Shown here in pieces: positions 41,010 through 58,442 of a stretch of DNA of 64,000 nt. The DNA lies in the NCBI RefSeq assembly GCF_001890765.1, contig NZ_KV878783.1:910098-974097 (forward strand), written 5' to 3'. Every line of letters begins with the position of its first letter. The stretch's first letter is position 1. Made by a program: the position numbers and the translations under genes. The stretch comes from Spirulina major PCC 6313 (lineage in GTDB: Bacteria > Cyanobacteriota > Cyanobacteriia > Cyanobacteriales > Spirulinaceae). A model generated the notes under the pieces. It was given only the letters and a program-made list of their open reading frames with translations, searched no databases and had not been told where the DNA came from.

Positions 41010-41135
41010 AGTAAGTCAAAGGGTTCTTAACGTTGTACAGTCCCTCGTTGGCGTGGTCGATCAGTTCTGAACTGTCTGCCCCCACACTGCCCCCAAAATC
41101 TTGATTTTAATGACATTTTTTTTCCAATTTTAGGG

Positions 41136-41141
41136 TGTGGG
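41136..41141. repeat. Target-site duplication copy, tnsB side
   Basis: TGTGGG abuts the tnsB-side transposon tip and is repeated directly after the other tip (58229-58234). Tn7-like elements make 5-bp duplications; the sixth base is probably chance or reflects a one-base ambiguity in the tip. Confidence 0.75.
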
Positions 41142-41360
41142 TGTCGATTGACTCATTAACTGACATCTTGACAAATTATTTGTCATTGCTATAGACAAGC
41201 CTGCAACCCTTACTATACATAAGGTTGTGGGCTTTTTGCATTGGAAATTTACTCAAAAGCAAAATTGACAAATTAGGTGTCGTATATTAGGAGTTTGCCA
41301 AAATATGTGTCGCTTTTCATTTAGTCCAGATTTTCTGGCTTTTTGACACATTCTGTGTCG
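41142..41360. promoter_or_regulatory. tnsB-side transposon end with five TnsB-like sites
   Basis: Five imperfect palindromes of the form TGAC-AAATTATTT-GTCA lie at 41149-41165, 41169-41185, 41266-41282, 41296-41312 and 41344-41360. The first two are 20 bp apart; the others are spread over the following 180 bp. The array-side end has three sites at strict 20-bp spacing, so the ends are asymmetric, as in other Tn7-like elements. Confidence 0.85.
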
Positions 41361-41367
41361 CTCAGGG

Positions 41368-41398
41368 TAAAATAACAACATGTTTGTATTAAACACAT
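41368..41398 (+). promoter_or_regulatory. tnsB promoter with CvkR-type operator
   Basis: A -10-like TAAAAT (41368-41373) is followed 4 bp later by a 21-bp sequence (41378-41398, starting ACATGTTTGTATT) that is identical to the one in the cas12k promoter (55286-55306). The element overlaps the expected transcription start of tnsB. The divergent MerR protein beside cas12k is the obvious ligand. Confidence 0.7.
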
Positions 41399-41407
41399 TT
41401 GTTGTAA

Positions 41408-43075
41408 ATGAATACAGGTAATCAAGAAGCTCATGCAGTTATCACTGACTTCTCTGAGGAGGAGAGGTTAAAACTAGAAGTTATCCAGAGTTTGATGGAA
41501 CCCTGTGATCACGCTACCTATGGACAAAAGTTAAAAGATGCGGCTCAGAAGCTAGGCAAGTCAAAGCGGACAGTGCAGCGATTAGTTCAGCAGTGGGAGG
41601 AGATGGGACTTGCAGCAGTTACTTCAAAGGCGAGGGCTGATAAGGGTAAACATCGTATTTCGCAAGAGTGGCAAGATTTTATTGTTAAGACCTATCGCTT
41701 AGGAAACAAGGGCAGTAAGCGGATGTCTCGAAAGCAGGTTGCTTTGAGAGTGCAAGCGAGGGCTGCTGAATTGGGAGAAAAAATGTATCCAAACGAGCGA
41801 ACGGTTTATCGGGTTCTCCAGCCCATTATCGAAGCACAGGAACAGAAGAAGAGTGTACGTTCGGCTGGGTGGCGGGGAGATCGCTTGTCGGTTAAAACTC
41901 GAACTGGTAATGATTTAGTAGTGGAATATACTAATCAGGTGTGGCAATGCGATCATACCTGGGTTGATGTTTTGGTAGTTGATGTCGAGGGAAACATTAT
42001 TGGTCGTCCTTGGCTGACAACTGTGATTGATACCTATTCACGCTGTATTCTGGGTATCCGGTTAGGGTTTGATGCGCCAAGTTCTCAGGTTGTTGCTTTG
42101 GCGTTACGTCATGCGATGCTACCGAAGCAGTATCCGCCTACGTTTGGTTTGCAGTGTGAGTGGGGAACCTACGGGAAGCCCGAATATTTCTACACGGATG
42201 GTGGGAAGGACTTTCGATCAGAGCATCTCAGACAAATTGGTATACAGTTAGGCTTTACTTGTGAGTTGCGCGATCGCCCATCTGAAGGTGGTGCCGTTGA
42301 GCGTCCTTTCGGGACATTAAATACAGAGCTATTTTCGACACTCCCTGGATATACGGGATCAAATATACAGGAACGTCCAGAGGATGCGGAGAAGGATGCT
42401 CGGATGACGTTACGGGACTTGGAACAGTTGATTGTTCGCTATCTTGTGGACAACTATAATCAACGTCTGGATAAGCGAATGGGCGACCAAACTCGCTATC
42501 AGCGGTGGGAATCAGGCTTATTAGCAACACCCGCTTTGCTGAGTGAGAGAGAGCTTGATATTTGCTTAATGAAGCAAACTAATCGCTCGATTTACCGTGA
42601 GGGCTATATTCGCTTTGAAAATTTGATGTATAAGGGCGAGTATCTGGCGGGTTATGTGGGAGAACGGGTAGTGTTGCGGTATGACCCTAGAGATATTACG
42701 ACTGTCCTAGTGTATCGGCGGGAGAAGAGTCAAGAGGTATTTCTAGCAAGGGCTTATGCTCAAGACTTAGAAACAGAGCAGTTGACCCTAGAAGATGCAA
42801 AGGCGATCAATAAAAAGATTCGAGAGAAAGGTAAGACGATTAGTAATCGTAGCATTCTTGATGAAGTGCGCGATCGCGATCTCTTTGTGTCTAAAAAGAA
42901 AACGAAGAAGGAACGGCAGAAGGAAGAACAAACGAGGTTATTTACCCCGGTAACAACTCCTAATTCCAAACAGGAGACAGAAGAGGAAGAGATTGAGCCT
43001 GTGGAAAAAATAGATGAGTTACCTCAAGTTGAGATCCTGGATTACGACGAACTAAATGACGATTACGGGTGGTAA
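41408..43075 (+). CDS. tnsB: Transposase TnsB of the V-K CAST
   Basis: A 555-residue DDE transposase closely similar in layout to ShCAST TnsB. An N-terminal helix-turn-helix part (AAQKLGKSKRTVQRLVQQWEE) is followed by an RNase H-like core with Asp182 in WQCDHTWVDV, Asp264 in YTDGGKDF and Glu298 in GGAVERPFG, then a C-terminal beta barrel and an acidic tail that would contact TnsC. It binds the end sites and performs strand transfer. The start is ATG 41408, 10 bp after the operator. Its stop codon overlaps the tnsC start. Confidence 0.96.
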   Translation: MNTGNQEAHAVITDFSEEERLKLEVIQSLMEPCDHATYGQKLKDAAQKLGKSKRTVQRLVQQWEEMGLAAVTSKARADKGKHRISQEWQDFIVKTYRLGNKGSKRMSRKQVALRVQARAAELGEKMYPNERTVYRVLQPIIEAQEQKKSVRSAGWRGDRLSVKTRTGNDLVVEYTNQVWQCDHTWVDVLVVDVEGNIIGRPWLTTVIDTYSRCILGIRLGFDAPSSQVVALALRHAMLPKQYPPTFGLQCEWGTYGKPEYFYTDGGKDFRSEHLRQIGIQLGFTCELRDRPSEGGAVERPFGTLNTELFSTLPGYTGSNIQERPEDAEKDARMTLRDLEQLIVRYLVDNYNQRLDKRMGDQTRYQRWESGLLATPALLSERELDICLMKQTNRSIYREGYIRFENLMYKGEYLAGYVGERVVLRYDPRDITTVLVYRREKSQEVFLARAYAQDLETEQLTLEDAKAINKKIREKGKTISNRSILDEVRDRDLFVSKKKTKKERQKEEQTRLFTPVTTPNSKQETEEEEIEPVEKIDELPQVEILDYDELNDDYGW

Positions 43076-43929
43076 TGATGGCAAGTGCAGAATCGAAAGC
43101 AAAAGCTGAAGCAGTCGCTCAACAGTTAGGAAATTTCGAGAAGACCGAGGAGGATCTAGCGAAAGAGATTCAACGTTTAAGACGTAGAAATGTTGTGCAG
43201 TTAGAGCAAGTCAAGCAGTTGCATAATTGGCTGGAGGGAAAGCGCAGGTCACGCCAATGTTGCCGAGTCGTGGGGGAATCTCGTACTGGCAAAACCATTG
43301 GTTGCAATGCTTACCGTTTAAGGCATAAGCCAATTCAGGAAACGGGTAAACCACCCATTGTTCCTGTAGTGTACATCGAACCGCCCCAGGATTGTGGTTC
43401 AATTGATTTATTTCGGGCAATTATTGAGTATCTAAAGTACAAGGTTCAGAGTCGAGAAAAAGTTCGAGAGCTTCGTAGTCGTGCAATGAAAGTATTAGAA
43501 CGGTGTCAGGTGGAGACACTAATTATTGATGAAGCCGATCGTTTGAAGCCCAAGACTTTTGCAGATGTTCGAGATATTTTTGATAAGCGGAATATCTCAG
43601 TGGTATTGGTGGGAACAGATCGCTTAGATAATGTCATTAAGCGAGATGAGCAAGTTCATAATCGCTTTCGAGCTTGCTATCGCTTTGGGAAGTTGACAGG
43701 GACGGAATTTGAGCAAGTGGTGAAGATTTGGGAGCGAGATATCTTACGCTTACCTATTCCCTCGAATTTACATGCGAAGAACATGTTGAAGATTCTTGGA
43801 CAGGCAACAGGAGGTTATATCGGCTTGTTGGATATGATTTTGCGGGAGACAGCGGTTCGAGCGTTGGAGAAGGGATTAGGGAAGATTAACTTGGAAACGT
43901 TGAAGGAAGTCGCAGAAGAGTACAGCTAA
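43075..43929 (+). CDS. tnsC: AAA+ regulator TnsC of the V-K CAST
   Basis: A protein of about 284 residues and the short form typical of V-K systems. Walker A is VVGESRTGKT and Walker B is TLIIDEADRLKP, followed by VVLVGTDRLD. TnsC filaments on DNA link the Cas12k-TniQ target complex to TnsB. The ATG at 43075 overlaps the tnsB stop; another ATG follows directly at 43078. The tniQ start overlaps the stop of tnsC, so the three genes are one translationally coupled unit. Confidence 0.95.
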   Translation: MMASAESKAKAEAVAQQLGNFEKTEEDLAKEIQRLRRRNVVQLEQVKQLHNWLEGKRRSRQCCRVVGESRTGKTIGCNAYRLRHKPIQETGKPPIVPVVYIEPPQDCGSIDLFRAIIEYLKYKVQSREKVRELRSRAMKVLERCQVETLIIDEADRLKPKTFADVRDIFDKRNISVVLVGTDRLDNVIKRDEQVHNRFRACYRFGKLTGTEFEQVVKIWERDILRLPIPSNLHAKNMLKILGQATGGYIGLLDMILRETAVRALEKGLGKINLETLKEVAEEYS

Positions 43930-44432
43930 TGAATGATTGGGAAATTCAGCCTTGGTTGTTTGTGGTTGAACCTTATGAGGGGGAAAGCCTGAGTCATTTT
44001 CTGGGGCGGTTTCGTCGAGAGAATGACCTTACTCCTGCGGGGTTGGGACGGGAGGCGGAAATAGGGGCGGTTGTATCTCGGTGGGAGAAGTTTCGCCTAA
44101 TTCCGTTTCCGTCGCAACGGGAGTTGGAGAAGTTAGCGCAGGTAGTACAGGTGGATGCTGCACGATTACGGGTGATGTTGCCGCCCGATGGGGTGGGAAT
44201 GAAAATGACTCCGATTCGCCTCTGTGGAGCTTGTTATAGAGAAGTTCGTTGTCATCGGATGGAATGGCAGTATAAGACGAGCGATCGCTGTGACAAGCAT
44301 CCGTTGCGGTTGTTGTCGGAATGCCCTAACTGTGGGGCACGGTTTCCCATTCCATCGCTATGGCAGGATGGTTGGTGTACTCGGTGTTTTACAACATTTG
44401 GAGAGATGGCAGAGAGTCAGAAACCGCTCTAA
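43929..44432 (+). CDS. tniQ: Target-selection protein TniQ of the V-K CAST
   Basis: A 167-residue short TniQ, the size found in V-K elements. The N-terminus has EGESLSHFLGRFRRENDLTP. A C-terminal zinc-finger region has CGACYRE, HPLRLLSECPNCGARFPIP and WCTRCF. In V-K transposition TniQ bridges the tracrRNA-Cas12k complex and the TnsC filament. The start codon overlaps the tnsC stop (TAATG). The cargo genes begin right after it on the opposite strand. Confidence 0.95.
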   Translation: MNDWEIQPWLFVVEPYEGESLSHFLGRFRRENDLTPAGLGREAEIGAVVSRWEKFRLIPFPSQRELEKLAQVVQVDAARLRVMLPPDGVGMKMTPIRLCGACYREVRCHRMEWQYKTSDRCDKHPLRLLSECPNCGARFPIPSLWQDGWCTRCFTTFGEMAESQKPL

Positions 44433-44461
44433 CAGCTCAGGTTAGTAGTAGTCTAAGTTGA

Positions 44462-45169
44462 CTACACTGTCAAACTGGCACCATTTTTTCTGAGCCAATC
44501 TTTTCTCTCACGGTAGTCTGGCAGCACTTTATCGACTTCGTTCCAGAAGGCATTGCTATGGTTACGGTAGTGGAAGTGGCAGAGTTCGTGGACGACGATG
44601 TAGTCAATGATTTTGGGTGGTGCCATCATGCACTTCCAGTGGAAATTGAGCCAGCCATTAGTGCCACAGCTAGCCCAGCGATAGCCCAGGTCTTTGACTT
44701 TGATTCCTGTAGCGTGGACACCAACTTTTGGGGCAAAGTAGCTAACTCGATCACGAAACCGTTGTTGTCCCTTCTCAGTGAAATAATTGGCAAAGGCTTG
44801 TTTAGCGGCTTGAGTCCCGTCCTTCTCGATCGCCGATCGATCTAAAAAAAAGCGACCGTTTTTCAACTTCAGGGGATGGTTCTGACTGGAGACGAGAGAC
44901 AAGCGATAGGTGCGGCCCAGATACAAGAAGGTTTCACCGTTGACCCATTCACGAACTATAGTACTGGCGTTAAGGTCTTTCCACTCAGCCAGGTTGCGGT
45001 AAATCCACATGCGCTTGGATTCGACAATTGCATCGACTTGTTCTGGAGTGTATTCGGCGGGTGGACGTACAGTAACTCTGCCATCGCGCTCAATCACAAT
45101 ATCGGTAGTTCTACGCGAGCTGCCAGATAGTAATTGGTATTCGATATCTCTGACACAGCGAACATTCAT
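44462..45169 (-). CDS. YgjP/M48-type metallopeptidase linked to the R-M system
   Basis: A 235-residue DUF45/YgjP-family protein with the zinc motif HELCH at 194-198 (IVVHELCHFHYRNHSNAFW) and the conserved RWASCGTNGWLNFHW segment before it. The start overlaps the hsdR stop (ATGA type), so it is co-translated with the restriction subunit. This pairing is common in type I R-M loci. It may control HsdR turnover, but that is inference. Confidence 0.88.
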   Translation of the reverse strand: MNVRCVRDIEYQLLSGSSRRTTDIVIERDGRVTVRPPAEYTPEQVDAIVESKRMWIYRNLAEWKDLNASTIVREWVNGETFLYLGRTYRLSLVSSQNHPLKLKNGRFFLDRSAIEKDGTQAAKQAFANYFTEKGQQRFRDRVSYFAPKVGVHATGIKVKDLGYRWASCGTNGWLNFHWKCMMAPPKIIDYIVVHELCHFHYRNHSNAFWNEVDKVLPDYRERKDWLRKNGASLTV

Positions 45170-48100
45170 GACTGATTAGTCTTGCCTTTCAATAATTCGG
45201 TGTGGCGGTTTTTGGCGAGTTTCATGATTTCGATCGCGATTCGTTCACGGTTGGCTTTCAACTCGGCAATACCCGTCAGGGTCAGCGCGGTCTTGATTTC
45301 ACTGCGAGTGCGCTTTTGTTTGTCGCTATTATTCCAGAAATCGATACTGCTAATACTAGCCTGTAAGGTTTCGACAACTGCTTCCATTAGCACCTTCATT
45401 TTAGGTTTGGCATCTGGCGGCACATCACTATCTGGGAAAGCCTGGTTGGCAATGTGTTCGTAGAACGTTGTTGCTTCCTTGCTCATGCCCTCTTCACCCC
45501 GCTGACGACCCGCGATCGCCTCAGCCCGGATTTTTTCTAGTTCGATAGCGAGCTGATCCCAGCGGTCTTGATATTCCTCGATCAGGTGCTCGACTTTCTC
45601 GGACAAACTTTTGTAGAAGGCGGGGTCTTCGTCGTGGTGGACTGTGCAGTGTTTGCGGATGGCGTGCTCCATTTCGCTAGCTTTCGCTTCGTCGTTATCC
45701 CCTGAATGCTGGTTGAGTTGCTCCATGAAATCGGCGGAGAGCAGCTCAACTGGGGGGACTTTGGGATTAATACCCAGGCTAATCAAATGCTCGTTGATTA
45801 AATCTCGGACTTTTTTCCCAGCATCACCTAAGTCGAGGCTGGTGTCTTTGTAACGCTCTTTGGTAACTCGAAGGATATAGCCTAGACGCTTGGCAGGGAC
45901 ACGATAACTCTGGCCAAGGGGGTTAGGCAAAATAATATCCAGGCTGGCCAGGAATTTTTTCAGATAGACCTCAAAGTCTGCCCGAATTTTCTCGTCTTTG
46001 AGCAGCTTAACGGCTTCGTGGACTACGGCAGCATCAGCTTCGACCGTCTCTAGGTTTCCTTCAGCATAATCGCGTATTTTTGCAACTTTGTGTCTTGTGA
46101 ACAGTTGCAGCAGACGTTGATAACGCTCTTCTAACATTGGCATCTCTGAGGCGATGCTCTTTAAGCCCTGGGCGAGTTCTTGCTGTTCATGGGTGGCGGC
46201 GTATAGGGTCAAAGCCTCGGTGAGATTTTCGGTTAGGCCGATGTAATCGACAATATAGCCTCGCTGTTTCCCTTGCTTGACCCGGTTGGTGCGAGCGATC
46301 GCTTGCAGCAGTGTATGCTCTTTGATTTTCTTGTCGAGATACATAACCTGCTCAATGGGGGCATCAAAGCCGGTAAGCAGCATGTCACACACCACCAAAA
46401 AGGCAATGCCAGTGTGGGGCTTATCAGGATCGTCGAAGTCGAAGGGGCGGCAAAAGTTATCAACGGCGTTCCAGGCGCGGGCCTGCTTGCGGGCTTCTGA
46501 GACATAAGCGGGTTCGTTGGTGCCGCTACCAGAGATCACCACCGCTGCCTTGAGGAAGCGCAATCTGCGGATACGTTCGGGATCATGGGTCTCTAACTGG
46601 GCGATGGTGTCCGCTAAAGCTTGATGGATAGCTTTTTGATAGCGCACGGCGGCAAGCTTGGAATGGCAGACGACTTGAGCCTTGAAGCCGTTGGGAAAAA
46701 TGTGCTCTAGATAATGTTTCACCAAGTCCTTGGCGATCGCGCTAATCCGTTGCTCAGCTTCTAGTAGGTCGCCGGTCGCCCCATACTTCTTTTTGATGGC
46801 GAGCAGTTCTTCATCGGTGCGATCGCGAAAGAGGTTTGCAAAGCGGGTTTCAAAGCCATGTTTATCCTGAAGGGCATCGTCGGAGGTGCGGCCCTCATAC
46901 AAAATTTGCAGGGTGGTGCCGTCGGCCACGGCATCCATGAGACGGTAGGTATCGATATAGTCGCCAAAACGGTTCTGGGTTTTCTTTTCGCCGTGGCGAT
47001 CGGTAATGAGGGGAGTGCCGGTAAAGGCGATGCGGGCGGCATGGGGGAAGGCTTCAAAGACGTTTTCACCCAGGTCGGAGCTTTGGGTGCGGTGGGCCTC
47101 GTCAATCATCAGCACAATGCGGTCGGAGTTATTGACCACCCCAAAGGTCTGGTCGCTGGGAATGGCGCGATAGGTGCCCAGGGCTTCGGCCACTTTCAGC
47201 GGCATGGCTGGGTCGCGCTGCTGAAACTTATGCACCATCACCATGTTGATGTCGGAGGTGTCGGTAGACAGGCGATCGCGCAGGGATTGGGTACTGTCGA
47301 TAGTGTGAACTCGTCCCCCAATGAGCGTGGCGGTTTTAGAAAGCTGATCTTCAAGATCGACGCGATCGTTAATTAACACAATTTTGTAGTCGCTCAGATC
47401 TGGGGTCGTCCGTAGCATTCGTGCCACAAACACCATGGTTAAGCTTTTGCCTGATCCCTGGGTGTGCCAAACGACACCACTTCTCTCTGTAGCGTTTTGG
47501 CCTTGGCGCAGGCGATCGATAATTTTGTGGGCGGCGCGAAATTGCTGGTAACGGCATACCACCTTAATGCGCGGGCCACTGTCGGTGTCCATAAAGACGC
47601 TAGAGGTGCGCAGGATGCTCAACAGGTTAGTTTTGTTGAGCATACCGTTGATGAGCTGTTGTTGTTGATTCAGTCCCTCGGCGGCGCTCTCCGGTTTGGG
47701 CCACTGAGTTTTCCAGGGATAGAAATGCTCTAGACCGGAGGTAATGGTGCCGTAGTCGGCCTCGATGCCCGTGCTGCGCATGACAAACAGGTTAGTGTGA
47801 AACAGGCGCGGCTCTCCTTCCCGTAAACCATGGCGGGTCGTCTCTTCCCGCTGGTTCATGTAGCGCTGGAGCTGCTCAAAGGCTTCAGCCATGGGGTTGG
47901 CGCAGGTGGTACTGCCTTTCTTACATTCGACCACCACCAAAGGGATGCCGTTCACGAACAGCACAAGGTCGGGAATGATGAACTGCTTGACGCAACCGGG
48001 CGTATCAATGCGGAACTGGTTGATGGCGTGAAACTGGTTGCGTTCAGGATTGGCAAAGTCAATGAGCTTGACTACCGGATCTTCTTCCCCGGTTTGCTCG

Positions 48101-48417
48101 TTGACATCCACCTGGGCTTTGAACAGCAGTTTTTGAATGGCTTCGTTGGCTTCGAGGAGGGTGCGGTTGGGCTGCCGCAGGATGTCGTCTTGCAGGTCTT
48201 GGAGCTGCTTGGTCGTGAGCCAGGGAGTACCGTCGGCGGTGGTGTTGAGGGCGGCGACGGCTTGGGTAAACACATTGGGCAGCAGCCATTGGCGAAAGTT
48301 GGTTCGCAGGCTTTGGGTCGGGTCGCTGGGGATTTGTGAACCTTGATCGATAACCTGCCAGCCCAGGGTTTGGATCTGCTGGAGAAAGGGCTGTTCGACT
48401 TCGGTATATTCGCTCAT
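45166..48417 (-). CDS. hsdR: Type I restriction enzyme, R subunit
   Basis: A 1083-residue HsdR. The N-terminal PD-(D/E)XK nuclease has Asp150 in IIPDLVLF and Glu164-Cys-Lys166 in VVVECKKG. The translocase follows with Walker A TQGSGKS (about 319-325), the DEAH box LMIDEAHRTQ and a FTGTPL motif. The C-terminal helical part would bind the methylase. It cuts DNA lacking the host methylation. It is separated from hsdM and hsdS by a two-gene unit on the other strand. As transposon cargo it confers phage defence on the host. Confidence 0.95.
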   Translation of the reverse strand: MSEYTEVEQPFLQQIQTLGWQVIDQGSQIPSDPTQSLRTNFRQWLLPNVFTQAVAALNTTADGTPWLTTKQLQDLQDDILRQPNRTLLEANEAIQKLLFKAQVDVNEQTGEEDPVVKLIDFANPERNQFHAINQFRIDTPGCVKQFIIPDLVLFVNGIPLVVVECKKGSTTCANPMAEAFEQLQRYMNQREETTRHGLREGEPRLFHTNLFVMRSTGIEADYGTITSGLEHFYPWKTQWPKPESAAEGLNQQQQLINGMLNKTNLLSILRTSSVFMDTDSGPRIKVVCRYQQFRAAHKIIDRLRQGQNATERSGVVWHTQGSGKSLTMVFVARMLRTTPDLSDYKIVLINDRVDLEDQLSKTATLIGGRVHTIDSTQSLRDRLSTDTSDINMVMVHKFQQRDPAMPLKVAEALGTYRAIPSDQTFGVVNNSDRIVLMIDEAHRTQSSDLGENVFEAFPHAARIAFTGTPLITDRHGEKKTQNRFGDYIDTYRLMDAVADGTTLQILYEGRTSDDALQDKHGFETRFANLFRDRTDEELLAIKKKYGATGDLLEAEQRISAIAKDLVKHYLEHIFPNGFKAQVVCHSKLAAVRYQKAIHQALADTIAQLETHDPERIRRLRFLKAAVVISGSGTNEPAYVSEARKQARAWNAVDNFCRPFDFDDPDKPHTGIAFLVVCDMLLTGFDAPIEQVMYLDKKIKEHTLLQAIARTNRVKQGKQRGYIVDYIGLTENLTEALTLYAATHEQQELAQGLKSIASEMPMLEERYQRLLQLFTRHKVAKIRDYAEGNLETVEADAAVVHEAVKLLKDEKIRADFEVYLKKFLASLDIILPNPLGQSYRVPAKRLGYILRVTKERYKDTSLDLGDAGKKVRDLINEHLISLGINPKVPPVELLSADFMEQLNQHSGDNDEAKASEMEHAIRKHCTVHHDEDPAFYKSLSEKVEHLIEEYQDRWDQLAIELEKIRAEAIAGRQRGEEGMSKEATTFYEHIANQAFPDSDVPPDAKPKMKVLMEAVVETLQASISSIDFWNNSDKQKRTRSEIKTALTLTGIAELKANRERIAIEIMKLAKNRHTELLKGKTNQS

Positions 48418-48627
48418 GATTTAGAAATACGGAATACAGCGAATGGTTTGGAGGATGCAGTTTTTTTGGTATAATCGTACTAATTCGATGAGATCGCCTA
48501 TACACAACTTCATCTTGATGTAATGAGCGCGATCGCAGCGACTAGAGACAGACAGAACTAATACACCTTAAAGGGGTTGCGATCGCTAAGCTATAATGAA
48601 ACGTCTTTAAAGATTTTGCTCTAAACG
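48418..48627. promoter_or_regulatory. Divergent promoter region between hsdR and the inserted pair
   Basis: A 210-bp non-coding stretch lies between divergent starts of hsdR and the hypothetical gene at 48628. It must hold both promoters. No dyad or strong sigma-70 consensus stands out. Confidence 0.4.
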
Positions 48628-49344
48628 GTGGTGTTAAAACGTCTCTCCCCACAGGAAGCCCGCACAAGGCTTGGGATTCTAACTCAGCAAGCAAGCAACA
48701 CTCAACCCAATCTAGCGCAAAAGCTAACTGCACTATCGAAGTGGATCAAAGATAAAAAAGACGGTCTATTAACGAGCAAGCCTTACGTCCTAGATCTACT
48801 CACCGAGATCATCCTGGATGTTGAGCTTTGGCTAATACTCAGTGCTTTCAGTCCTGAGGATAGGCAGGAATTGTATGCTAGCGAGAATTTTTCAGTTACA
48901 GAACAGTACTGGTTTGACGTTTTATTTCCACGCTGGATCAATGATCAAGACCCAAAGTTTCCGACTTGGAAGCGGGAGGTGATGAACGGTAACTTCAAGC
49001 GAGAGGATGAGTCAATCTTGAGAGACCTTACCCGCGAAATTGAGGGGCGTGGGGGAAGCTATCTGTGGAAGCATCTACTTGATTTGTCTATGGCAACGGA
49101 TCTGTTGGCCTCTGGGCAGCAGGAGGCAACGCTGTGCGTCCAGCTAACGACGCTTTCAGAGCCGTATCTGACCGAGAAGCGACAGTCATGGGAGGCAACC
49201 CTACAATATTGGGATATTTTGTGGGGACTGCTCGTCAGTTACAACCCGATGGGCGATGCACTTACCCTTCGGCTTGCTGAAGATATTTTGCGCTGTAGCG
49301 ATGCGCCAACGGCTAACGGTTACAATCTTGTTACGAACCTTTAA
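48628..49344 (+). CDS. Hypothetical protein upstream of HEXXH peptidase
   Basis: A 238-residue protein with a likely GTG start (VVLKRLSPQEARTRLG). I recognise no family. It is rich in predicted helices and aromatic residues (WLILSAFSPEDRQELY, QYWFDVLFPRWIND) and ends with another helical stretch. It is 21 bp upstream of the peptidase gene and co-directional, so the two form a unit. This pair interrupts the R-M operon in the opposite orientation. It could be an antitoxin- or sensor-like partner of the peptidase; nothing in the sequence decides this. Confidence 0.6.
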   Translation: MVLKRLSPQEARTRLGILTQQASNTQPNLAQKLTALSKWIKDKKDGLLTSKPYVLDLLTEIILDVELWLILSAFSPEDRQELYASENFSVTEQYWFDVLFPRWINDQDPKFPTWKREVMNGNFKREDESILRDLTREIEGRGGSYLWKHLLDLSMATDLLASGQQEATLCVQLTTLSEPYLTEKRQSWEATLQYWDILWGLLVSYNPMGDALTLRLAEDILRCSDAPTANGYNLVTNL

Positions 49345-49365
49345 GGCAATTGCCCGGTATCGGTC

Positions 49366-50559
49366 ATGACTAGCGAAAACAACATTTTTAGTTTTAGCGA
49401 AAGCACTGACCCTCTAGAAAAAGCTAGGGCGGCTTTGCGTGCCGTGCGCCAATATCAGCAGGATTGGCAAGAGCACGGGGTTGATCGAGTTCACAAGTAT
49501 TTTGATGATGTCGAGGGAGATTGGCTTGAGAATTTTGATGAGATACCAGCGGAAGTTTCGCTAGCTCAAATTTCAAAAGTCAATTTTTCTGATATCGTCA
49601 CTCAGCTAAAATCATTAGGATTATCCAAATCTTTTATTGAACGTGTGGCTTTCCCCTCTTGGTGGAGAGGTGATTTTGAAAATGATGCAGAAGCACAATT
49701 CAAACTTTTGACTGCTTTGGCAAAACGCCTTCGCTTAGAAATTAACGTTCAAGGTTCATTAGACCTTTCTTTAAGTTTTTTGCTAATACCAGCGGCAAAG
49801 TTTAAATTGCAGAAAAAGCAAGAAAAGCCAGAGCTTTTTAGCTATCTAGCATCAAGTGTTGCCAACATCGTTCTTGGGGCTGTTGATCTGCCTTATCTAC
49901 CTATTCCTGCTAATCCATCAGTGATCAGGAAATCAATACTTCAAAAGGGTTCTTGTGTAAGCTTAGAAAGCTTATTAGATTTTTGTTGGAGTTGTGGGCT
50001 TCCAGTTATTCAGTTTGATTTGTCTACTCTTTTTGGAAAAGGCAATAACGGACTTACCAAGTCTGACGGCTTGGTGTTTATGACCGATAATCGACCTACT
50101 ATTATCATCGGTTCTTCTCATAAGTATTCCGCTTGGCTACTTTTTATTCTGGCTCATGAGTTAGGGCATATCGCTTGTAGCCATCTACAAGAGGGGATTT
50201 TGTCGGATGAATCCTTTAAGGGTGGTGTAAATGACGAAGAAGAAGAAGAAGCTAACCAGTTTGCGACACAGCTTTTGTTTGGGGATTTTTCTCCTCGCTG
50301 GGCGAGAACTCTCAACCAGAAAACTCTCTTCAACAAAGCTCAACGCTTAGGCAAGGAACAGAATCTTGATCCGGGTGCGCTGATTCTTAACTATGGTTGG
50401 CAAACCGGCAATTGGGGATGTGCTATGGCGGCATTGAAGCGTCTAGAACCTAATGCTAATGCTCCAACGCAGATTAATGCCTATTATCAAAGTCATCTGA
50501 TCAACCTTGATGATGATAGTCGAGAGTATCTTGAGCAGGTGAAGGTTTTGGCTACTTGA
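49366..50559 (+). CDS. ImmA/IrrE-like metallopeptidase (HEXXH)
   Basis: A 397-residue protein. The C-terminal half has a zinc-peptidase site HELGH at 264-268 (FILAHELGHIACSH) and a downstream glutamate-rich EEEEEANQFATQLLF helix that supplies the third ligand, as in ImmA/IrrE. The N-terminal half has an EKARAALRAVRQYQQDWQEHG helix and a LTALAKRLRLEI segment without a known DNA-binding motif. Peptidases of this type cleave repressors or antitoxins in mobile elements. Its partner is presumably the gene before it. Confidence 0.78.
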   Translation: MTSENNIFSFSESTDPLEKARAALRAVRQYQQDWQEHGVDRVHKYFDDVEGDWLENFDEIPAEVSLAQISKVNFSDIVTQLKSLGLSKSFIERVAFPSWWRGDFENDAEAQFKLLTALAKRLRLEINVQGSLDLSLSFLLIPAAKFKLQKKQEKPELFSYLASSVANIVLGAVDLPYLPIPANPSVIRKSILQKGSCVSLESLLDFCWSCGLPVIQFDLSTLFGKGNNGLTKSDGLVFMTDNRPTIIIGSSHKYSAWLLFILAHELGHIACSHLQEGILSDESFKGGVNDEEEEEANQFATQLLFGDFSPRWARTLNQKTLFNKAQRLGKEQNLDPGALILNYGWQTGNWGCAMAALKRLEPNANAPTQINAYYQSHLINLDDDSREYLEQVKVLAT

Positions 50560-50619
50560 GGAAACTTGACAGATTTCTTCTTTTATCGAAAGTCATCAAG
50601 TTCTTGCAGATCGGTGTGT

Positions 50620-51933
50620 TCAGCCATGATCCTCCTCATCAGCGTCAACGTTGACCGGAACTTTGCCAGTGAGCAAATCGTTCATTAAGCCAGCTTTTGC
50701 TTTGTGAAGCTTATTGAGGGTTGTCTTCTCCGTTTGTAGCTTAAGTTCAATGCCATCGATTCTTATTACTATCCTTCGTTGCTCTTCAAGATCGTGGGGA
50801 CACGATATCAGAATCTTTTGTAAATTTGTAGGATTAATGTTGACCTGCTGAACGCCGGGTGTTGCATAGCGCCTCAAAGCATTTTGGGATGATACTTGAC
50901 TCATCCAATATGAGAAGAAATGTGGAAGAATCATGTCATCATGCAAATTTATGCGAACTAAGTAAGAAGCAAAAGAACATTCGGAAAGTTCGCCTCGCCA
51001 AATGGCTGTTTTCCCTACATGCTCTATTGAATTTGTGCGGTTATAAAGTACATCTCCATTTTTAATCTTTAGATTGTCAGCATCTAGGTTACTTGTGTAT
51101 TTGATGTCAGAAACATCAAATGAATTTTCCTGAATATTATTCATTCTCAGAACAGGTATTCCTACCTCTTCATCACTTAAACTTGTTGAGATTCCATATT
51201 GTGCCGATTTAACATATTGTTTAATTGGCATACAATTCCAATCCTTGGGAATCCAACCGATCGCGCTCTCCTGATACAACTCTGGTGCTTCTTCACGGGG
51301 CGATCGCAGCTTACCATCTGCACCAATGCCACGGGTAAACAGGTCGTGCATCAGCCCTGACTTAATCTGCTGATATTTCTCGATCAGGGCTTCTGTGTGG
51401 GCGATCGCGCGATCGATTGTTTGAAGAGTGGCGGCAATAGATTGCTGCTGATTAATTGGAGGTAGCTGTAAAGGAATGCTAGCTAGATGCTCAGCAGAGA
51501 TGTGTATTACAGAGCTACCCTGACCTAACCTCGCTTTGTTCTTGTTGGCATAATCACTATTGACGGCATAGCCTGCAAAGTAAGGATCAAGGCTTGAGCT
51601 TGGACGGAAAATGAGTGTATCGCCTCCTGCATAAGCCTTCTCTTGACCACAATAGGCTGCTGCCTTGCCTATTTCTTCAAATGTTTCTCCAGACCCAGCA
51701 AAGATAACATCACCAGTTTGGAGTGGTGTGTATGAAGATGCTCTATCAGGTTCGATGGCAGAACAAAAGTTTTTGACTATGCAATCATGATGCGTGTAAA
51801 TATCACCATAGCGAATACAAGGAAGACCGTTATCACTTTCATCAGAACGAGTCCCACCTTGTCCTCGGAAAAATCTACCGAGAGATCCTAAAGAAACTGT
51901 TTTCCAATTATCTGGCAAAGTCACATTACTCAT
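50620..51933 (-). CDS. hsdS: Type I restriction-modification specificity subunit S
   Basis: A 437-residue HsdS with two target-recognition domains. The first starts [19 protein letters not shown] and is followed by the conserved spacer [37 protein letters not shown]-type coiled coil near 190. The second starts [14 protein letters not shown] and ends in a similar coiled coil with [15 protein letters not shown]. The ATG at 51933 overlaps the end of hsdM by 8 bp; an upstream in-frame start at 51978 is less likely. The two domains dictate a bipartite methylation site that cannot be read from sequence. Confidence 0.92.
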
Positions 51934-54655
51934 ACCCCAACTCCACCAAAAACGCATGTAACTCCCGTGCCGCCTCATCCCGCTGCGCCTCGATCTCCTT
52001 CGCCGTCACCGCATACTTCTCCCAAAGGTTCTCAATTGCCCGTACACAAGCCCGCTGATCTGCCCGTAAATAGCGTTCATAGGTTTCCATCAGCCATTTC
52101 CGTAGCCGCTCAATAATCACCGTCCGCGCCTCATCCGTTGAGATTTTTTCTCGCGCACTTTGCACCAATTCATCGCGGCTACTCTCCGTCGCCTTGATGC
52201 TGGCCCGCAGCGTTTTGACTTCCTCCTCCAAAACCCTATGGTGTTCCAAACTTGCGGCAATGCTTGCGGCCCGGTGGTAAGCCTGCTGCCCCTGCGCGAT
52301 CGCCTCCTTTAACGGAATAGCATACTCACTGATCTGCCCCACCTCCATCGCCAACCCCAAAATGCGATTTCCATTGGCAAATTGCGCCTCTTTCTGAGAC
52401 AAACCTGCCGTACAGTAAAAACCTTTCTTTGCGCCAGAGGGTAACAGTCCCACCGCCTTGATTTCGGTGAAAATATTACCCGCTAAAGCCTTCACCTGCT
52501 TGAGTTGCGCCTTCCATGCCGCAGTCTGGAGCCTCAGCTCCTCCTTCTGGCTTTTCACCTCGTCACTGGGCAAAACCCCCGTATCGTCCGTATCCTCAAA
52601 ATCCTCCTCATCCGCCGCCGCAAACAGCGATCGCAACTCCGCCAGTCGCGTCTGGGCCTGCTCCAGCTCCGCCAACACCTCCGGGAACTGGCTCTGCAAA
52701 AGATCCTCATCCGGAATCAGTTCCGGCCCCCAACCGCTGGCCGCGATCGATTTAAAGTCTGCCTTCAGCACGTCCACATAGTTGGCAAACGCCCCCCGCA
52801 CCTGGAACGCCGTCAGCAACTGCTGATCCACCAACGCCGCCTCAATGCTCCCCAGCAGACCGCTGCGCAGGGTGTAGACATTCCGGGGCCGCGCCTCCTG
52901 ATTCGCCGCATCGGGTGCCAGCGCCTCCACGATCGGCAGGTTCGCCTGCCACCACTCCGCCAGGGTTTGCATAAACTGCTGGTGACGGGTCGTGACGCTC
53001 TGATGCGTCGCCACAAAATCGGCAATATCGCGCTTACTCGTTAGCACTGGGGCAAAGTCCAGATAAGTCTCATCGCGGGGCACAAAGGCATCCTCACGCA
53101 GTTGCCCATAGTTTTGCCAAAAGTGCGCCAGGCTATCGACCTCCACCTTCGGCACGCCCCCATGCAGATGCGCCCGCACATCGTGGGGTTCCGGCGGCGG
53201 GGCATTGTCCACATAGCGGCGAATGTTGCAGTTGTACTCCTCACCGACAATCTCCGACCGGGGCACCATCCGCGCATAGGCTGGAATGTCTGCCTTCGTG
53301 CGATAAGCGTAGACAATTTTGTCGATGTCTTCAGGCCTCAAAAAGTTTTGCGCCTTGCCCTCCCGGTACTCGCGATCGGCATTGATAAACAGCACCTCGT
53401 CACGCTCCTGCGCTCCCACCTTGTTCATCACCAACAGGCAGGCCGGAATGCCCGTGCCATAAAACAAGTTACTGGGCAGGCCAATAACCGCCTCTAGATA
53501 GCCGTGGTCGATGAAGTACTTGCGGGCCTCCCGCTCCTCGCCGCCGCGAAACAGCACCCCATGGGGCATCACCGTCGCCATGCGGCCATCATGCTTCAGC
53601 ACCGCCAGCATGTGCTGCACAAACATTAGGTCAGCCTTCTTGCCCTTTGCCGGCATCATCACCGGAAACCGACCATCAAATTTCAAGCCTTTCTTGATGT
53701 AGTTCTGGCTAAACGGCGGATTAGCAAGGACGCGATCGAACCGTTTCAACTCGTTGTTCTCATCCAAATGCTGGGGTTCACGAATCGTGTCCTCCTGCCG
53801 AATATCCGCATGGGAAATGCCGTGCAGCAGCATATTCATCTTGCAAATCGACCAGGTGGTTCCCATCTTTTCCTGACCAAACAGCGCCAGCTCATCGGCA
53901 CTGCCTCCCTTTTCCCGCAGGTAGTCCCGCATCTGAATCAGCATACCGCCCGACCCTACCGTAGGGTCATAGACCCGCATCCCCTCTTTGGGGTCACAAA
54001 TTTCCACACAAATTCGCACCACTTCAGCCGGTGTGTAAAATTCGCCTGCCTTTTTCCCCGCCGAGTCCGCAAAATACTTGATCAGGTACTCATAGGCCGC
54101 CCCCAGCAGATCTGGAAACTCAAAGTCGCTATCTTTCAGGGGGATCTTCTCAAAATTCAGCAAAAAATCAGACAGCGTGTCGTCATCTAATGTTCGTTGC
54201 CCAATCTTGCGGTTGAAGTTAATCCCTTTGAGCACATCCTCCAGAACATCGACGTTGGCTTCTTCAATGGCCTCCAGAGCTTTATTGAGCGTCGTACCAA
54301 CGTTTTCCTTGACGTGCTTCAACGCTGGATGGTGAATGATCTTGGTCGTCCCGTCGTCTTCAGTGACGGTTTCTTCCCAAGGTTCATTCCACCGAGCACT
54401 ACAGGGAATGTAAAAGTATTTTCCAGAATAATTATCGTGATCCGCTAACGCTTCTTCAATATCTGCGATCGCCATGCCCTGGGACGCGAACTCTGCACGC
54501 AACTCAGCCCGTCGCTGATCAAAGAGGTCACTCGCCCGCTTTAAGAACAACATGCCAAAGATGTACTCTTTGAACTCGCTGGCATCCATGCTGCCGCGTA
54601 GATCATCGCAGGCCGTCAACAGCAGATTGTATAAGCGGGAAAGCGTTAGTTTCAT
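51926..54655 (-). CDS. hsdM: Type I restriction-modification methylase subunit M
   Basis: A 909-residue N6-adenine methyltransferase. SAM motif I appears as [11 protein letters not shown] (about 232) and the catalytic motif IV as [10 protein letters not shown] (about 315), with an N-terminal helical HsdM domain and [10 protein letters not shown] before it. It is much longer than typical 500-residue HsdM because of an extended, largely helical and coiled-coil C-terminus from about 560. It starts the hsdM-hsdS operon, 165 bp from the CvkR-like gene. Confidence 0.92.
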
Positions 54656-54819
54656 TGATTAAGCAAAATTGATTTGATTCTAAGGCAAAAGTTGTTACAG
54701 TCTGCTTCCGAAACTATGCAGCATACAAGAACACTAGATTGACCTAGATAGAGAGACGCGATGTTCCTGAAGTCCTTATATAGCGAAGGTTTTTACTCTC
54801 TGCGATAAGGTTTATTAAT

Positions 54820-55251
54820 TTAATTAGGGCTAATTTTATTTGATAATTTTGAATAAATTTGCTCTAACCAGACAGGAATGACAGGTTGACCGGCATCGAG
54901 AGACGCGATCGCACCTTCACGATCGAACTCCACTAATTCTAATTTTCCTCTCATTTCCTCCCACTTCAACATAAACCGCCTTGCAATGGGCGGTTCAACA
55001 AACCGAGGTTCAATTGCCCGTAGCTTCATCAAGCTCTCATGCGCCACCTCAAACGTCAATCCCAGCGAGAGCCAATAGGCCATCACCGACAACTCCACCA
55101 GATTTGCCTGGGAGTAGTAGATACTGCGTCCTGTCCCCGTCGCATTAATCGTCGGAATGACCACCTCCTTCTCCCGCCAATACTGCAACTGGCGCAACGT
55201 ACAGCCTGTAATGTCCGCAGCCTCGCGACTGCTAAAAAATGGTTGTTCCAT
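54820..55251 (-). CDS. cvkR: MerR-type repressor of the V-K system (CvkR-like)
   Basis: A 143-residue MerR-family regulator: FFSSREAADITGCTLRQLQYWREKEVV is the winged HTH, followed by a SIYYSQANLVELSVMAYWLSLGL helix. It lacks a metal-binding C-terminus. It is divergent from cas12k across 67 bp, the arrangement described for CvkR, the repressor of cyanobacterial V-K systems. The operator-like sequence between the genes recurs before tnsB, so it may govern both guide-complex and transposase production. Confidence 0.88.
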   Translation of the reverse strand: MEQPFFSSREAADITGCTLRQLQYWREKEVVIPTINATGTGRSIYYSQANLVELSVMAYWLSLGLTFEVAHESLMKLRAIEPRFVEPPIARRFMLKWEEMRGKLELVEFDREGAIASLDAGQPVIPVWLEQIYSKLSNKISPN

Positions 55252-55275
55252 GGGTTCAATTTTAGAAGAACCCGC

Positions 55276-55306
55276 TATAATACATACATGTTTGTATTAA
55301 ACACAT
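55276..55306 (+). promoter_or_regulatory. cas12k promoter with CvkR-type operator
   Basis: A consensus -10 TATAAT lies at 55276-55281, and 4 bp later begins a 21-bp element (55286-55306, starting ACATGTTTGTATT) identical to that before tnsB. Here it is part of a wider near-palindrome, AATACA...TGTATT (55279-55298). It covers the expected transcription start, so binding should block initiation. Confidence 0.75.
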
Positions 55307-55318
55307 ACGTTGGTTGTC

Positions 55319-57202
55319 ATGAGCCAGATTACAATCCAGTGTCGCCTCGTTGCCAGTGAAGCTACTCGCCAAGTCCTGTGGACACTTATGGCAGAGCGCA
55401 ACACACCTCTCATCAACGAACTGCTGGCACAAATGGCACAGCATCCTGACCTAGAGGAGTGGCGACAAAAGGGAAAACCTACCCCTGGCGTAGTCAAGAA
55501 GCTCTGTGACCCCCTGCGACAAGACCCCCGCTTCATGGGTCAACCTGGGCGTTTTTATTCAAGCGCGATCGCGCTCGTTGAATACATCTACAAATCTTGG
55601 CTCAAACTCCAGCAACGGCTACAACGCAAACTCGAAGGGCAACAACGTTGGCTCGGAATGCTCAAGAGTGACCCAGAACTTTGTGAAGAAAACCACTGTA
55701 CCCTCGATACTCTCCGCGACAAGGCAGCCGAAATCTTAGCGTCTCTTGAATCCCCTCAGCCGAAGCAGGGTAAGGTAAAGACGAAAAAAGCAAAAGCTCA
55801 ATCAAGTCCTCGTCAGAGCCTCTTTGAAATGCACGATGGTGCTGAAGATGGGTTTGTGAAAAGCGCGATCGCCTACCTCCTCAAAAACGGTGGCAAACTT
55901 CCCACCCACGAAGAAGACCCCAAGAAATTTGCCAAACGCAGACGCAAAGCAGAAGTCAAGGTTGAGCGACTGATCCATCAAATCACCGCCAGCCTCCCCA
56001 AAGGGCGAGACTTAACCGGAGAACGATGGCTCGAAACTCTTCTTACCGCCTCCTATACCGCCCCAAAGGATGCACAACAAACGAAGGTATGGCAAAGCAT
56101 CCTCTTGACCAAAACCAAGGCAGTTCCCTACCCCATCAACTACGAAACCAACGAAGATCTCACTTGGAGTAAAAACGAAAAAGGTCGTCTCTGTGTCCGT
56201 TTCAACGGCTTGAGTGAACATACCTTCCAAATTTACTGTGATCAACGCCAGCTCAAATGGTTCCAACGCTTCTATGAAGACCAAGAAGTTAAACGCACCA
56301 GCAAGAATCAACACTCCACTAGCCTCTTTACTCTACGCTCAGGACGCATTGTTTGGCAGGAAAGCGATCGCAACGATAAACCCTGGACAGCCAATCACAT
56401 CACCCTCTGCTGTACTCTCGACACACGCCTCTGGTCAGCCGAAGGAACAGAGGAAGTTCGCACCGAAAAAGCAATAGACATCGCCAAAACCTTAACTAAC
56501 ATGAACGAAAAAGGCGATCTCAATGACAAACAACAAGCCTTCATCAAACGAAAAACTGCTACTCTCGACCGCATCAATAACCCCTACCCTCGTCCTAGCA
56601 AGCCCCTCTATCACGGTCAATCGCATATTCTAGTTGGGGTTGCTCTCGGACTCGACAAGCCTGCAACCGTCGCTGTCGTAGATGGTACAACGGGCAAAGC
56701 AATCACCTACCGCAATCTCAAGCAACTTTTGGGTGAAAACTACAAACTCGTCAACCGTCAACGTCAACAGAAACAAGCCCAATCTCACCAACGCCACAAA
56801 GCCCAAAAACGCTCTGGTACTGATCAGTTTGGTGATTCTGAGTTAGGACAACATATTGACCGCCTGTTAGCAAAAGCCATTGTGGCCTTCGCTCACAGTC
56901 AAAGTGCAGGAAGTATCGTCGTTCCCAAGCTCGAAGATATACGGGAAATTGTCCAAAGCGAAATCCAAGCCAGAGCTGAGGAAAAAGTGCCAGGCTACAT
57001 CGAAGGACAAAAGCAATACGCCAAACGGTATCGTGTGCAAGTCCATCAGTGGAGCTACGGTAGATTGATCGACAGCATCAAGTCGAAAGCAACCCAGCAA
57101 CAAGTCGTGATTGAAGAGGGGAAACAACCTGTACGGGGCAGTCCAGAAGCGCAAGCGACGGAGCTAGCCATATCAACCTATCATCTTCGCGCAAGTTCTT
57201 AA
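55319..57202 (+). CDS. cas12k: Cas12k, RNA-guided targeting protein of the CAST
   Basis: A 627-residue protein, close to the length of ShCas12k. It begins MSQITIQCRL, and INELLAQMAQHPDLEEW, FMGQPGRFYSSAI and YIYKSWLKLQQRLQ follow the Cas12k pattern. The C-terminal RuvC-like part has ILVGVALGLDKPATVAVVD, in which the usual catalytic aspartates are not conserved, so it binds but does not cut DNA, as known for the family. The ATG at 55319 matches the family start; an in-frame TTG lies 9 bp upstream. It acts with tracrRNA, TniQ and TnsC to choose insertion sites. Confidence 0.96.
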   Translation: MSQITIQCRLVASEATRQVLWTLMAERNTPLINELLAQMAQHPDLEEWRQKGKPTPGVVKKLCDPLRQDPRFMGQPGRFYSSAIALVEYIYKSWLKLQQRLQRKLEGQQRWLGMLKSDPELCEENHCTLDTLRDKAAEILASLESPQPKQGKVKTKKAKAQSSPRQSLFEMHDGAEDGFVKSAIAYLLKNGGKLPTHEEDPKKFAKRRRKAEVKVERLIHQITASLPKGRDLTGERWLETLLTASYTAPKDAQQTKVWQSILLTKTKAVPYPINYETNEDLTWSKNEKGRLCVRFNGLSEHTFQIYCDQRQLKWFQRFYEDQEVKRTSKNQHSTSLFTLRSGRIVWQESDRNDKPWTANHITLCCTLDTRLWSAEGTEEVRTEKAIDIAKTLTNMNEKGDLNDKQQAFIKRKTATLDRINNPYPRPSKPLYHGQSHILVGVALGLDKPATVAVVDGTTGKAITYRNLKQLLGENYKLVNRQRQQKQAQSHQRHKAQKRSGTDQFGDSELGQHIDRLLAKAIVAFAHSQSAGSIVVPKLEDIREIVQSEIQARAEEKVPGYIEGQKQYAKRYRVQVHQWSYGRLIDSIKSKATQQQVVIEEGKQPVRGSPEAQATELAISTYHLRASS

Positions 57203-57245
57203 GAAAGAAATCCGCCACTTTCCGTACCTTGACAATAGAATAGAG

Positions 57246-57520
57246 ATAATCGCGCCGTAGGTCATGTTCTTTCAGAACCGCTGAACTACGAAAAATATGG
57301 GCTAGTTTGCTTGTTTGACAGCAAGTGTGCTTTCTGGCCCTGGTAGCTGTCCGCCCTGATGCTGATTTCTGCACACCTTAATAGCAGAAATGATTAACTT
57401 GAGAAATGAAACGCTTGTGCCTTCATTTTACGAGGTCGGTGCGCTCCCAGCAATAAGAGTGTGGGTTTACCACAGTGATGGCTACCGAATCACCCCCGAC
57501 CAAGGGGGAATCCACCCCAA
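57246..57520 (+). ncRNA. tracrRNA of the V-K CAST
   Basis: This region after cas12k matches the ShCAST tracrRNA block by block as I recall it: CGCGCCG near the start, CCTGGTAGCTG, CGCCCTGATGCTG, GGTGCGCTCCCAGCAATAA (about 57437-57455), GGCTACCGAATCACCCCCGA and CAAGGGGGAA. The anti-repeat AATCCACCCC (57509-57518) pairs with the 3' end of the array repeats (one mismatch in ten) and gives nine contiguous pairs with the homing repeat. Ends are approximate. Confidence 0.88.
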
Positions 57521-57543
57521 TCTTCTCATTTCTGGCGTATACG

Positions 57544-57580
57544 AAGCGGGGTCAAAATCCCCAAGAGGTTCGCCAAAATG
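57544..57580 (+). promoter_or_regulatory. Leader motif shared with arrays 1 and 2
   Basis: AAGCGGGGTC, then a short variable part with CCCC, then AGGTTCGCC and AAAA, reproduces the distal block of the 208-bp leaders of arrays 1 and 2 (for example 26039-26075) with few substitutions. It lies 179 bp before the first V-K repeat, against 191 bp in the other two leaders. The rest of the V-K leader is not obviously similar. Confidence 0.7.
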
Positions 57581-57722
57581 GGAAACCCCTTTCTCAATCT
57601 GCTTTCTAGGCTTTTGATCTGGTCTTTCAGGGCAGTTAACCCAAAGCCAACAGCGACGTTTCCGGCAGATCTGCCAAAACTGAGGTGGGAAAGCAGTCTG
57701 GATAAGGCTTCACCAGGGAGCG

Positions 57723-57977
57723 GTTTCAATGACCATCCCACGTTGGGATGGATTGAAAGAGGCACTCCTTTTCCGGGAACACTCCCTTCCTGAGTTTCAA
57801 TGACCATCCCACGTTGGGATGGATTGAAAGATTTCCATACTGATACCCTCTCTCCACCGAAATATCGTTTCAATGACCATCCCACGTTGGGATGGATTGA
57901 AAGAGACAGCATCTTGCGTGTTCACGATATCTTCTGGAGAGTTTCAATGACCATCCCACGTTGGGATGGATTGAAAG
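57723..57977 (+). CRISPR. V-K CRISPR array (4 intact repeats)
   Basis: Four identical 37-nt repeats start at 57723, 57794, 57867 and 57941. They begin GTTTCAATGACCATCCCACG and end TTGGGATGGATTGAAAG, with internal dyad CATCCCA...TGGGATG. Spacers are 34, 36 and 37 nt, and 36 nt separates the last repeat from the degenerate one. Repeat length and 3' TTGAAAG agree with V-K arrays. The repeat is unrelated to that of arrays 1 and 2. Spacers show no match I can see within the window. Confidence 0.95.
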
Positions 57978-58013
57978 AGGTTTGCCTCGGAGATGTTTGC
58001 CCTAGTGAGATTG

Positions 58014-58097
58014 GTTGCTGAAACCATCCCAAGGTGGGATTAGGTTGAAAGAGTAATACAAGAATTGGGTGGATTGAAAGCAAGTCCCACCGTCCCC
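58014..58097 (+). CRISPR. Degenerate repeat and delocalised homing guide
   Basis: A decayed repeat (58014-58051, CATCCCAAGGTGGGATTAGG then TTGAAAG) is followed after 15 bp by a truncated repeat GGGTGGATTGAAAG (58067-58080). The 17 nt after it, CAAGTCCCACCGTCCCC (58081-58097), match the 3' end of the neighbouring tRNA-Leu gene at 15 positions, the first 11 without interruption. This is the delocalised crRNA layout by which V-K transposons home to tRNA genes. Confidence 0.88.
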
Positions 58098-58164
58098 TAC
58101 TTTAGTGCAATGCAAGATTACACAACAAACTTGCTCTGAATGTATGGAAGGTTCGTAAAAGTGG

Positions 58165-58228
58165 TGACAAATAATTTGTCAAGATGACATCAATTTGACA
58201 ACGATGACAAATAATTAGTCAATCGACA
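58165..58228. promoter_or_regulatory. Array-side transposon end with three TnsB-like sites
   Basis: Three 16- to 17-bp imperfect palindromes start at 58165 (TGACAAATAATTTGTCA), 58185 and 58205, exactly 20 bp apart, and the tip ...TCAATCGACA ends at 58228. The tip is 7 bp beyond the last site, the same as at the other end. Confidence 0.88.
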
Positions 58229-58234
58229 TGTGGG
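58229..58234. repeat. Target-site duplication copy, array side
   Basis: TGTGGG follows the array-side tip directly and is the direct repeat of 41136-41141. Confidence 0.75.
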
Positions 58235-58271
58235 CAACACCGTCAGAACAACTCAGAAAACTCTGAAACGA

Positions 58272-58356
58272 TGGGGGTGGTGGGACTTGAACCCACACGT
58301 CTTTTTACGGACAACGGATTTTAAGTCCGCAGCGTCTACCATTCCGCCACACCCCC
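58272..58356 (-). tRNA. tRNA-Leu (UAA), without intron
   Basis: Read on the minus strand, it is an 85-nt class II tRNA. The acceptor arm GGGGGTG pairs with CACCCCC and the discriminator is A. GGCGGAATGGTAGACGC forms the D-arm region, CGGACTTAAAATCCG is the anticodon arm with TAA, a long variable arm follows, and GGGTTCAAGTCCC forms the T arm. CCA is not encoded. Many cyanobacteria carry a group I intron between U34 and A35 of this gene; here the loop is uninterrupted. Its 3' end is the homing target of the CAST. Confidence 0.95.
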
Positions 58357-58442
58357 AAGAGCAGTGACAGGGTTCTAGTTTAGCAGCAAATGGCGGCCAC
58401 TGCATGGAACAGAACCCTCAGAAAATCTAATCAATCTGCCTC

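Follow-up and report, generated by a model that had tools for sequence, protein, structure and literature searches.

The 64,000-nt stretch of Spirulina major PCC 6313 DNA analysed here (the window), which belongs to a 5.05-Mb genome in two contigs, contains what we consider with high confidence (probability about 0.94) to be an intact-looking type V-K CAST inserted downstream of tRNA-Leu(UAA) at a distance of 61 bp from the PAM, with its own short delocalised crRNA as the guide. Such an element, with a delocalised guide to this tRNA, had been proposed from the sequence alone (the sequence-only reading), and its genes, guide, PAM, spacing and tips support the proposal. Cas12k, the combination of tnsB, tnsC and tniQ, and, downstream of cas12k, a CRISPR array with 37-nt repeats were all found, identifying the element as a V-K CAST (Table 1). 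To our knowledge, V-K elements are without tnsA. The Cas12k protein matched PDB Cas12k chains with a best E value of 2.9e-255; its top PADLOC match was a model labelled Cas12j (V-J), barely above the Cas12k models, which is probably a labelling issue. The cargo is a type I restriction-modification system, in which HsdR exceeds its NCBIfam cutoff, while HsdM (236.6 versus a cutoff of 242.75) and HsdS fall under theirs and both rest on PADLOC type I matches. The sole PDB match of the MerR-type regulator was Alr3614 (7xn2), which is given as CvkR of Anabaena in the excerpted text of PMC9938897.

Table 1. Features of the V-K element and its insertion site (window positions)
Feature	Position	Strand	Basis
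TGTGGG, duplication copy, tnsB end	41136..41141		identical to 58229-58234; adjoins terminal repeat
V-K CAST between its two tips; terminal inverted repeats TGTCGATTGACT..., agreeing at 15/16	41142..58228		terminal repeat comparison
tnsB transposase, 555 aa	41408..43075	+	Pfam Mu-transpos_C, rve
tnsC AAA+ regulator, 286 aa	43069..43929	+	Pfam TniB, AAA_22
tniQ, 167 aa	43929..44432	+	Pfam TniQ
Cargo: YgjP-like metallopeptidase, HsdR, family-less ORF, M78-peptidase protein, HsdS, HsdM	44462..54655		NCBIfam, PADLOC, Pfam
MerR-type regulator, CvkR homologue	54820..55251	-	Pfam MerR_1; PDB 7xn2 Alr3614, E 2.5e-33
cas12k, 630 aa	55310..57202	+	NCBIfam V_Cas12k, 952 bits (cutoff 150); PDB Cas12k chains
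Putative tracrRNA region	57203..57720	+	inverted repeat; lies between cas12k and array, as in the excerpted PMC9938897
CRISPR array, four identical 37-nt repeats	57723..57977	+	repeat search
Truncated repeat R* (GGGTGGATTGAAAG), 14 nt	58067..58080	+	R* as in the excerpted PMC9938897
Homing (anchor) guide, 17 nt	58081..58097	+	match to tRNA-Leu(UAA)
TGTGGG, duplication copy, array end	58229..58234		identical to 41136-41141
tRNA-Leu(UAA), intronless	58270..58357	-	ARAGORN, Leu(taa); Rfam RF00005
Protospacer, 3' end of tRNA-Leu(UAA), 15/17 identical to guide	58273..58289	-	guide comparison
PAM GTT	58290..58292	-	adjoins protospacer

The guide CAAGTCCCACCGTCCCC agrees with the protospacer CAAGTCCCACCACCCCC, read on the minus strand from 58289 to 58273, at 15 of 17 positions; positions 1-11 and the last four are identical, and positions 12 and 13 are mismatched. 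The sequence-only reading had claimed precisely this match to the minus-strand 3' end of the tRNA, including its perfect first 11 positions, and was equally right about the PAM, which is the complement of 58290-58292 and fits GTN. The guide follows R*, and its GTN-PAM protospacer lies just beyond the left end, as in V-K anchor (delocalised) guides. Behind the array (58017-58080) there is a fifth, diverged repeat with its end near 58051, then a short stretch and R*. An inverted-repeat search found 57509-57524 to be complementary to 58060-58075 (88% over 16 nt). By eye, R* (GGGTGGATT) is the exact complement of the presumed tracrRNA anti-repeat, and the array repeat has one mismatch. A 6S RNA gene (58481-58668) lies directly upstream of the tRNA in divergent orientation, and similar DNA is present at the corresponding loci of two congeners (L019 and L022).

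T-arm sequence is shared among tRNAs, and a spacer might resemble it by chance. Such a coincidence is contradicted by an identity of 15/17 combined with a correctly spaced PAM, and we regard it as vanishingly improbable. The runner-up 17-mer in the window matched the guide at 14/17 and lacked a GTN PAM. When the whole genome was scanned with GTN plus guide, the tRNA site was the sole place within two mismatches, the guide itself aside, and three further places had three mismatches. Across the 152 guide-bearing loci of the survey described below, reversed or complemented guides never exceeded 13/17, as against 15-17 for the real guides; a same-strand control reached at least 13 in 11 of the 152 loci and at least 15 in five. 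Chance similarity was rejected on these grounds.

We surveyed the homing guides of other V-K CASTs, starting from the best 80 of 137 relatives' V-K loci (GTDB records), 160 further stretches hand-picked from places of Cas12k matches, mostly with a long match, and the window (241 in total). After removal of 10 loci with fewer than 700 bases beyond cas12k and 56 that repeated another locus's first 600 downstream bases, 175 were left. A guide was called where an R*-like motif was followed by a sequence matching an opposite-strand, GTN-PAM protospacer at 13/17 or better. By this rule the arrangement of the window recurs in 152 of the 175 loci, and none was called in 23, which shows how regular the homing rule is. 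The best match per locus was 17/17 in 95, 16/17 in 46 and 15/17 in 11, the window among them. The sequence-only reading had termed the site "very clean", which is too strong, since 15/17 is the lowest match class. A tRNA was recognised at the target in 133 of the 152 loci by ARAGORN without introns, and, with protospacers searched on one strand only and tRNAs on both, all 133 point at the element, as in the window. The other 19 targets (e.g., L070, L081, L083 and L108) have no tRNA by intron-free ARAGORN; when 17 of them were rerun with introns allowed, a tRNA appeared only in L096 and L162, and some of the others resemble coding sequence. tRNA-Leu(UAA) is a rare site, accounting for one of the 152 loci by ARAGORN without introns and for three when L096 and L162 are counted. 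As regards V-K elements on plasmids, two records matched at E 1e-50.

The last base of the element is 58228, and 61 bases (58229-58289) separate this tip from the PAM, in keeping with a left end about 60 bp away. The 61-bp distance to the array-side tip had thus been read correctly beforehand, and it is typical: one tip candidate lies 50-70 bp from the PAM in 130 of the 152 loci, and the commonest distances are 59 and 61 (21 each). The TGTGGG copies that were said to flank both ends are present as well, but they are 6 bp long and not 5 bp, the length stated in the excerpted texts of PMC11406308, for Tn7 and all related elements, and PMC9527255, for CASTs. When only the five bases next to each tip are compared, they disagree (GTGGG versus TGTGG).

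To see the flanking repeat of the window among others, far ends were fetched for 40 elements and loci containing both ends were added. Of 103 guide-bearing entries, 38 had a TnsB match and 25 had tips alike at 13/16 or better, the best tip pair being picked by its inverted repeat alone and not by the flanking repeat; two of the 25 were second copies (L337/L078 and L324/L080), leaving 23 elements. The flanking repeat was 5 bp in nine of these, and single cases had 4 bp (L097), 6 bp (the window) and 8 bp (L062); L112 also has a 6-bp repeat, but its ends are of unlike type (11/16). By these counts the repeat of the window appears slightly unusual. Eleven of the 23 (e.g., L314, L317, L320 and L338) have no flanking duplication of 4-9 bp, which suggests frequent rearrangement after insertion. 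Whether the window's repeat arose from a 5-bp duplication extended by one base through chance or slippage, or by a 6-bp staggered insertion, we judge to be evenly balanced. A 5-bp event in which one base slipped would give the identical sequence and would conform both to the published length, as far as the two excerpts state it, and to that of the nine elements; the copies agree only as 6 bp, however, and an 8-bp repeat was also found once.

Several observations speak against self-guided insertion: no empty site was found in the relatives examined (see below), the flanking repeat has 6 bp, the guide matches at 15/17, 23 of the 175 surveyed loci gave no guide by our rule, five of the 152 also have a same-strand match of at least 15, and this guide fits better to the tRNA of the congeners L019 and L022, which both have G at position 12 and so match at 16/17. 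The last of these could be accommodated if the element had reached the tRNA through an array guide, by untargeted insertion or by recombination with a resident element, the anchor guide being left over from an earlier host site. The 11 duplication-less elements, which imply that ends can be reshuffled after insertion, would also leave room for such a history. The PAM, the 61-bp spacing and the flanking repeat, however, all agree with this guide having directed the insertion here, and the tRNA site is unique within two mismatches genome-wide; we therefore consider any of these other routes quite unlikely and retain insertion by the element's own guide.

By analogy with characterised V-K systems, from which we infer the transcription, binding and transposition of this copy (its layout, PAM, spacing, tips and flanking repeat being read from the DNA), insertion may have proceeded as follows: (i) a complex of Cas12k, tracrRNA and R*-guide crRNA would bind the tRNA gene in its 3' end, at the GTT PAM; (ii) TniQ and TnsC would then assemble; and (iii) TnsB would join the ends at a distance of some 60 bp, the array end being the one closest to the PAM and the tRNA being left whole. 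The imperfect guide is probably still functional, since it matches perfectly over the first 11 positions and both of its mismatches would be capable of G-U wobble. The window offers a good worked example of a V-K transposon finding a safe chromosomal site.

Insertion of this kind predicts an empty allele beside tRNA-Leu(UAA) reading TTAGGGTGTGGGCAACAC, with the junction TTAGGG-TGTGGG-CAACAC. No such allele was found: none of the relatives examined could be aligned with the flank past the tRNA on one side, or past the end of an IS605-type insertion in the left flank on the other. A search for tRNA-Leu loci matched 96 of 99 genomes and returned 30 loci, the window's own included in both counts, and the left flank aligned to none of the 29 relatives' loci (L003-L031). 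The joined flanks were also compared by Smith-Waterman alignment with the DNA downstream of the relatives' tRNAs, where the congeners L019 and L022 did not score above shuffled sequence; L012 alone exceeded its 30 shuffles (40 versus 38), which was taken as noise. In a comparison of 30000-41141 with 12 relatives, the matches listed reach only to about 41021, near the end of the IS605-type insertion, and about 115 bp of flank are unmatched. The TnpB gene of this insertion (39827-41020) has apparently broken frames and stops about 120 bp short of the element's tnsB end. The relatives' IS605-type copies end near the same base as that of the window.

Short delocalised crRNAs reportedly direct V-K elements to tRNA genes (Saito et al., Cell, 2021), and Hsieh and Peters (bioRxiv, 2021) are likewise said to have described such homing. 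The short delocalised guide of the window, directed to a tRNA gene, resembles those systems. The arrangement is already described, and the window is an ordinary member of the group: the excerpted text of Ziemann et al. 2023 (PMC9938897) reports a 17-nt anchor spacer by a truncated repeat, a GTN PAM, a tRNA towards the left end, and a left end 46-82 nt from the PAM with one exception, a range that includes the 61 bp of the window. CvkR beside cas12k and transposase genes at the opposite end are further shared features, and we see no structural difference from the V-K CASTs of that excerpt, apart from the choice of tRNA-Leu(UAA) as a rare site. The window also resembles ShCAST (Tn7747, Scytonema hofmannii), with a Cas12k homologous to solved structures and a tip at the same distance as in the transpososome substrate of that system, whose LE is 61 bp from the PAM according to the excerpted PMC9876797. 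It differs from ShCAST in having a direct repeat of 6 bp rather than 5 bp, and in its cargo and host.

Three V-K loci of other cyanobacteria, L096, L162 and the decayed L354, sit at tRNA-Leu(UAA) with guides in the identical register. The guide match is thus kept at this tRNA in related elements, where its absence had been named in the sequence-only reading as grounds for abandoning the interpretation. In L096 (Nostocales cyanobacterium LEGE 12452) and L162 (genome G434), a group I intron (Rfam RF00028) interrupts the tRNA. With introns allowed, ARAGORN reported Leu(taa) for L162 and Ser(aga) for L096; because of the latter call, the L096 site was assigned to Leu(UAA) from its exon sequence, read by eye. 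Their guide starts at the same T-arm base as that of the window, and, as one guide is common to both, the two may represent a single lineage. L354 (genome G025), from a different taxonomic family within the same order, lies next to a tRNA-Leu(UAA) that has no intron and retains a fragment of Cas12k; its left end is 48 bp from the PAM, and its guide matches at 15/17.

The two mismatches of the window have a feature in common: guide G12 and U13 face T and G of the target strand, and both are wobble compatible, so that the guide is pairable at 17/17. At position 12, the 30 tRNA loci (29 relatives and the window's own) have A in 22 cases and G in 8; at position 13 all of them have C. From this we developed the tentative idea, which we think possible but on balance doubtful, that V-K homing guides maintain pairing with the target rather than identity to it, their mismatches being biased towards G-U type wobbles (C to U and A to G). 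The mismatches of 92 unique guide/target pairs (44 perfect) were clustered into 54 events, a procedure that corrects for relatedness incompletely, and among these wobble-compatible transitions outnumber the reverse ones by 25 to 9 (p 0.009, or 0.015 with target base composition). As the hypothesis originated from the window, the count was repeated without it, giving 23 versus 9 (p=0.02), with 8 versus 1 at positions 1-9 and 15 versus 8 at positions 10-17. The excess is driven by C to T (19) versus G to A (4), target to guide; taken by itself, A to G (6) versus T to C (5) is unbiased. Among the 57 imperfect loci, 21 become fully pairable once wobbles are allowed, including 5 of the 11 at 15/17. 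Neither mismatch of the decayed L354 guide is wobble compatible, one being a reverse transition and the other a transversion. A further sample of 67 loci, 47 of them with a guide, gave three new pairs (one perfect, one with a wobble-compatible C13 to T, and one with a transversion); these and L354 were left out of the wobble counts. Strand-specific mutation acting on the transcribed guide would produce the same pattern as a wobble bias.

Among the matches listed in a literature search there was no report of wobble in Cas12k or CAST homing to tRNA, and in the excerpt of one CAST paper the word refers to codon positions in I-F3 targets. If true, pairability would allow one guide to serve many hosts whose tRNA genes differ slightly. 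Should the bias hold, homing guides would be tuned for host range besides a single site, and the result would bear on the specificity of Cas12k-guided insertion and on guide design. Of the 54 clustered events, only three fall at positions 1-6, which is what a seed would lead one to expect, and 12 fall at position 15; this natural variation outlines a seed and, distal to the PAM, a permissive position.

The tRNA-Ala(CGC) target contains the palindrome GCGATCGC, which the guide nearly always breaks. Ten of the 11 survey loci at this tRNA (L119, L129, L167, L191, L193, L194, L196, L202, L230, L260 and L310) have a mismatch at guide position 14 or 15 (G14 to A; C15 to A, T or G), L310 alone being perfect. 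In L377 and L389, their tRNA being assigned from an identical target, the changes are C13 to T and G14 to T. Outside the tRNA-Ala(CGC) loci, perfect guides make up 94 of 141. Selection may act against guides whose RNA pairs with itself.
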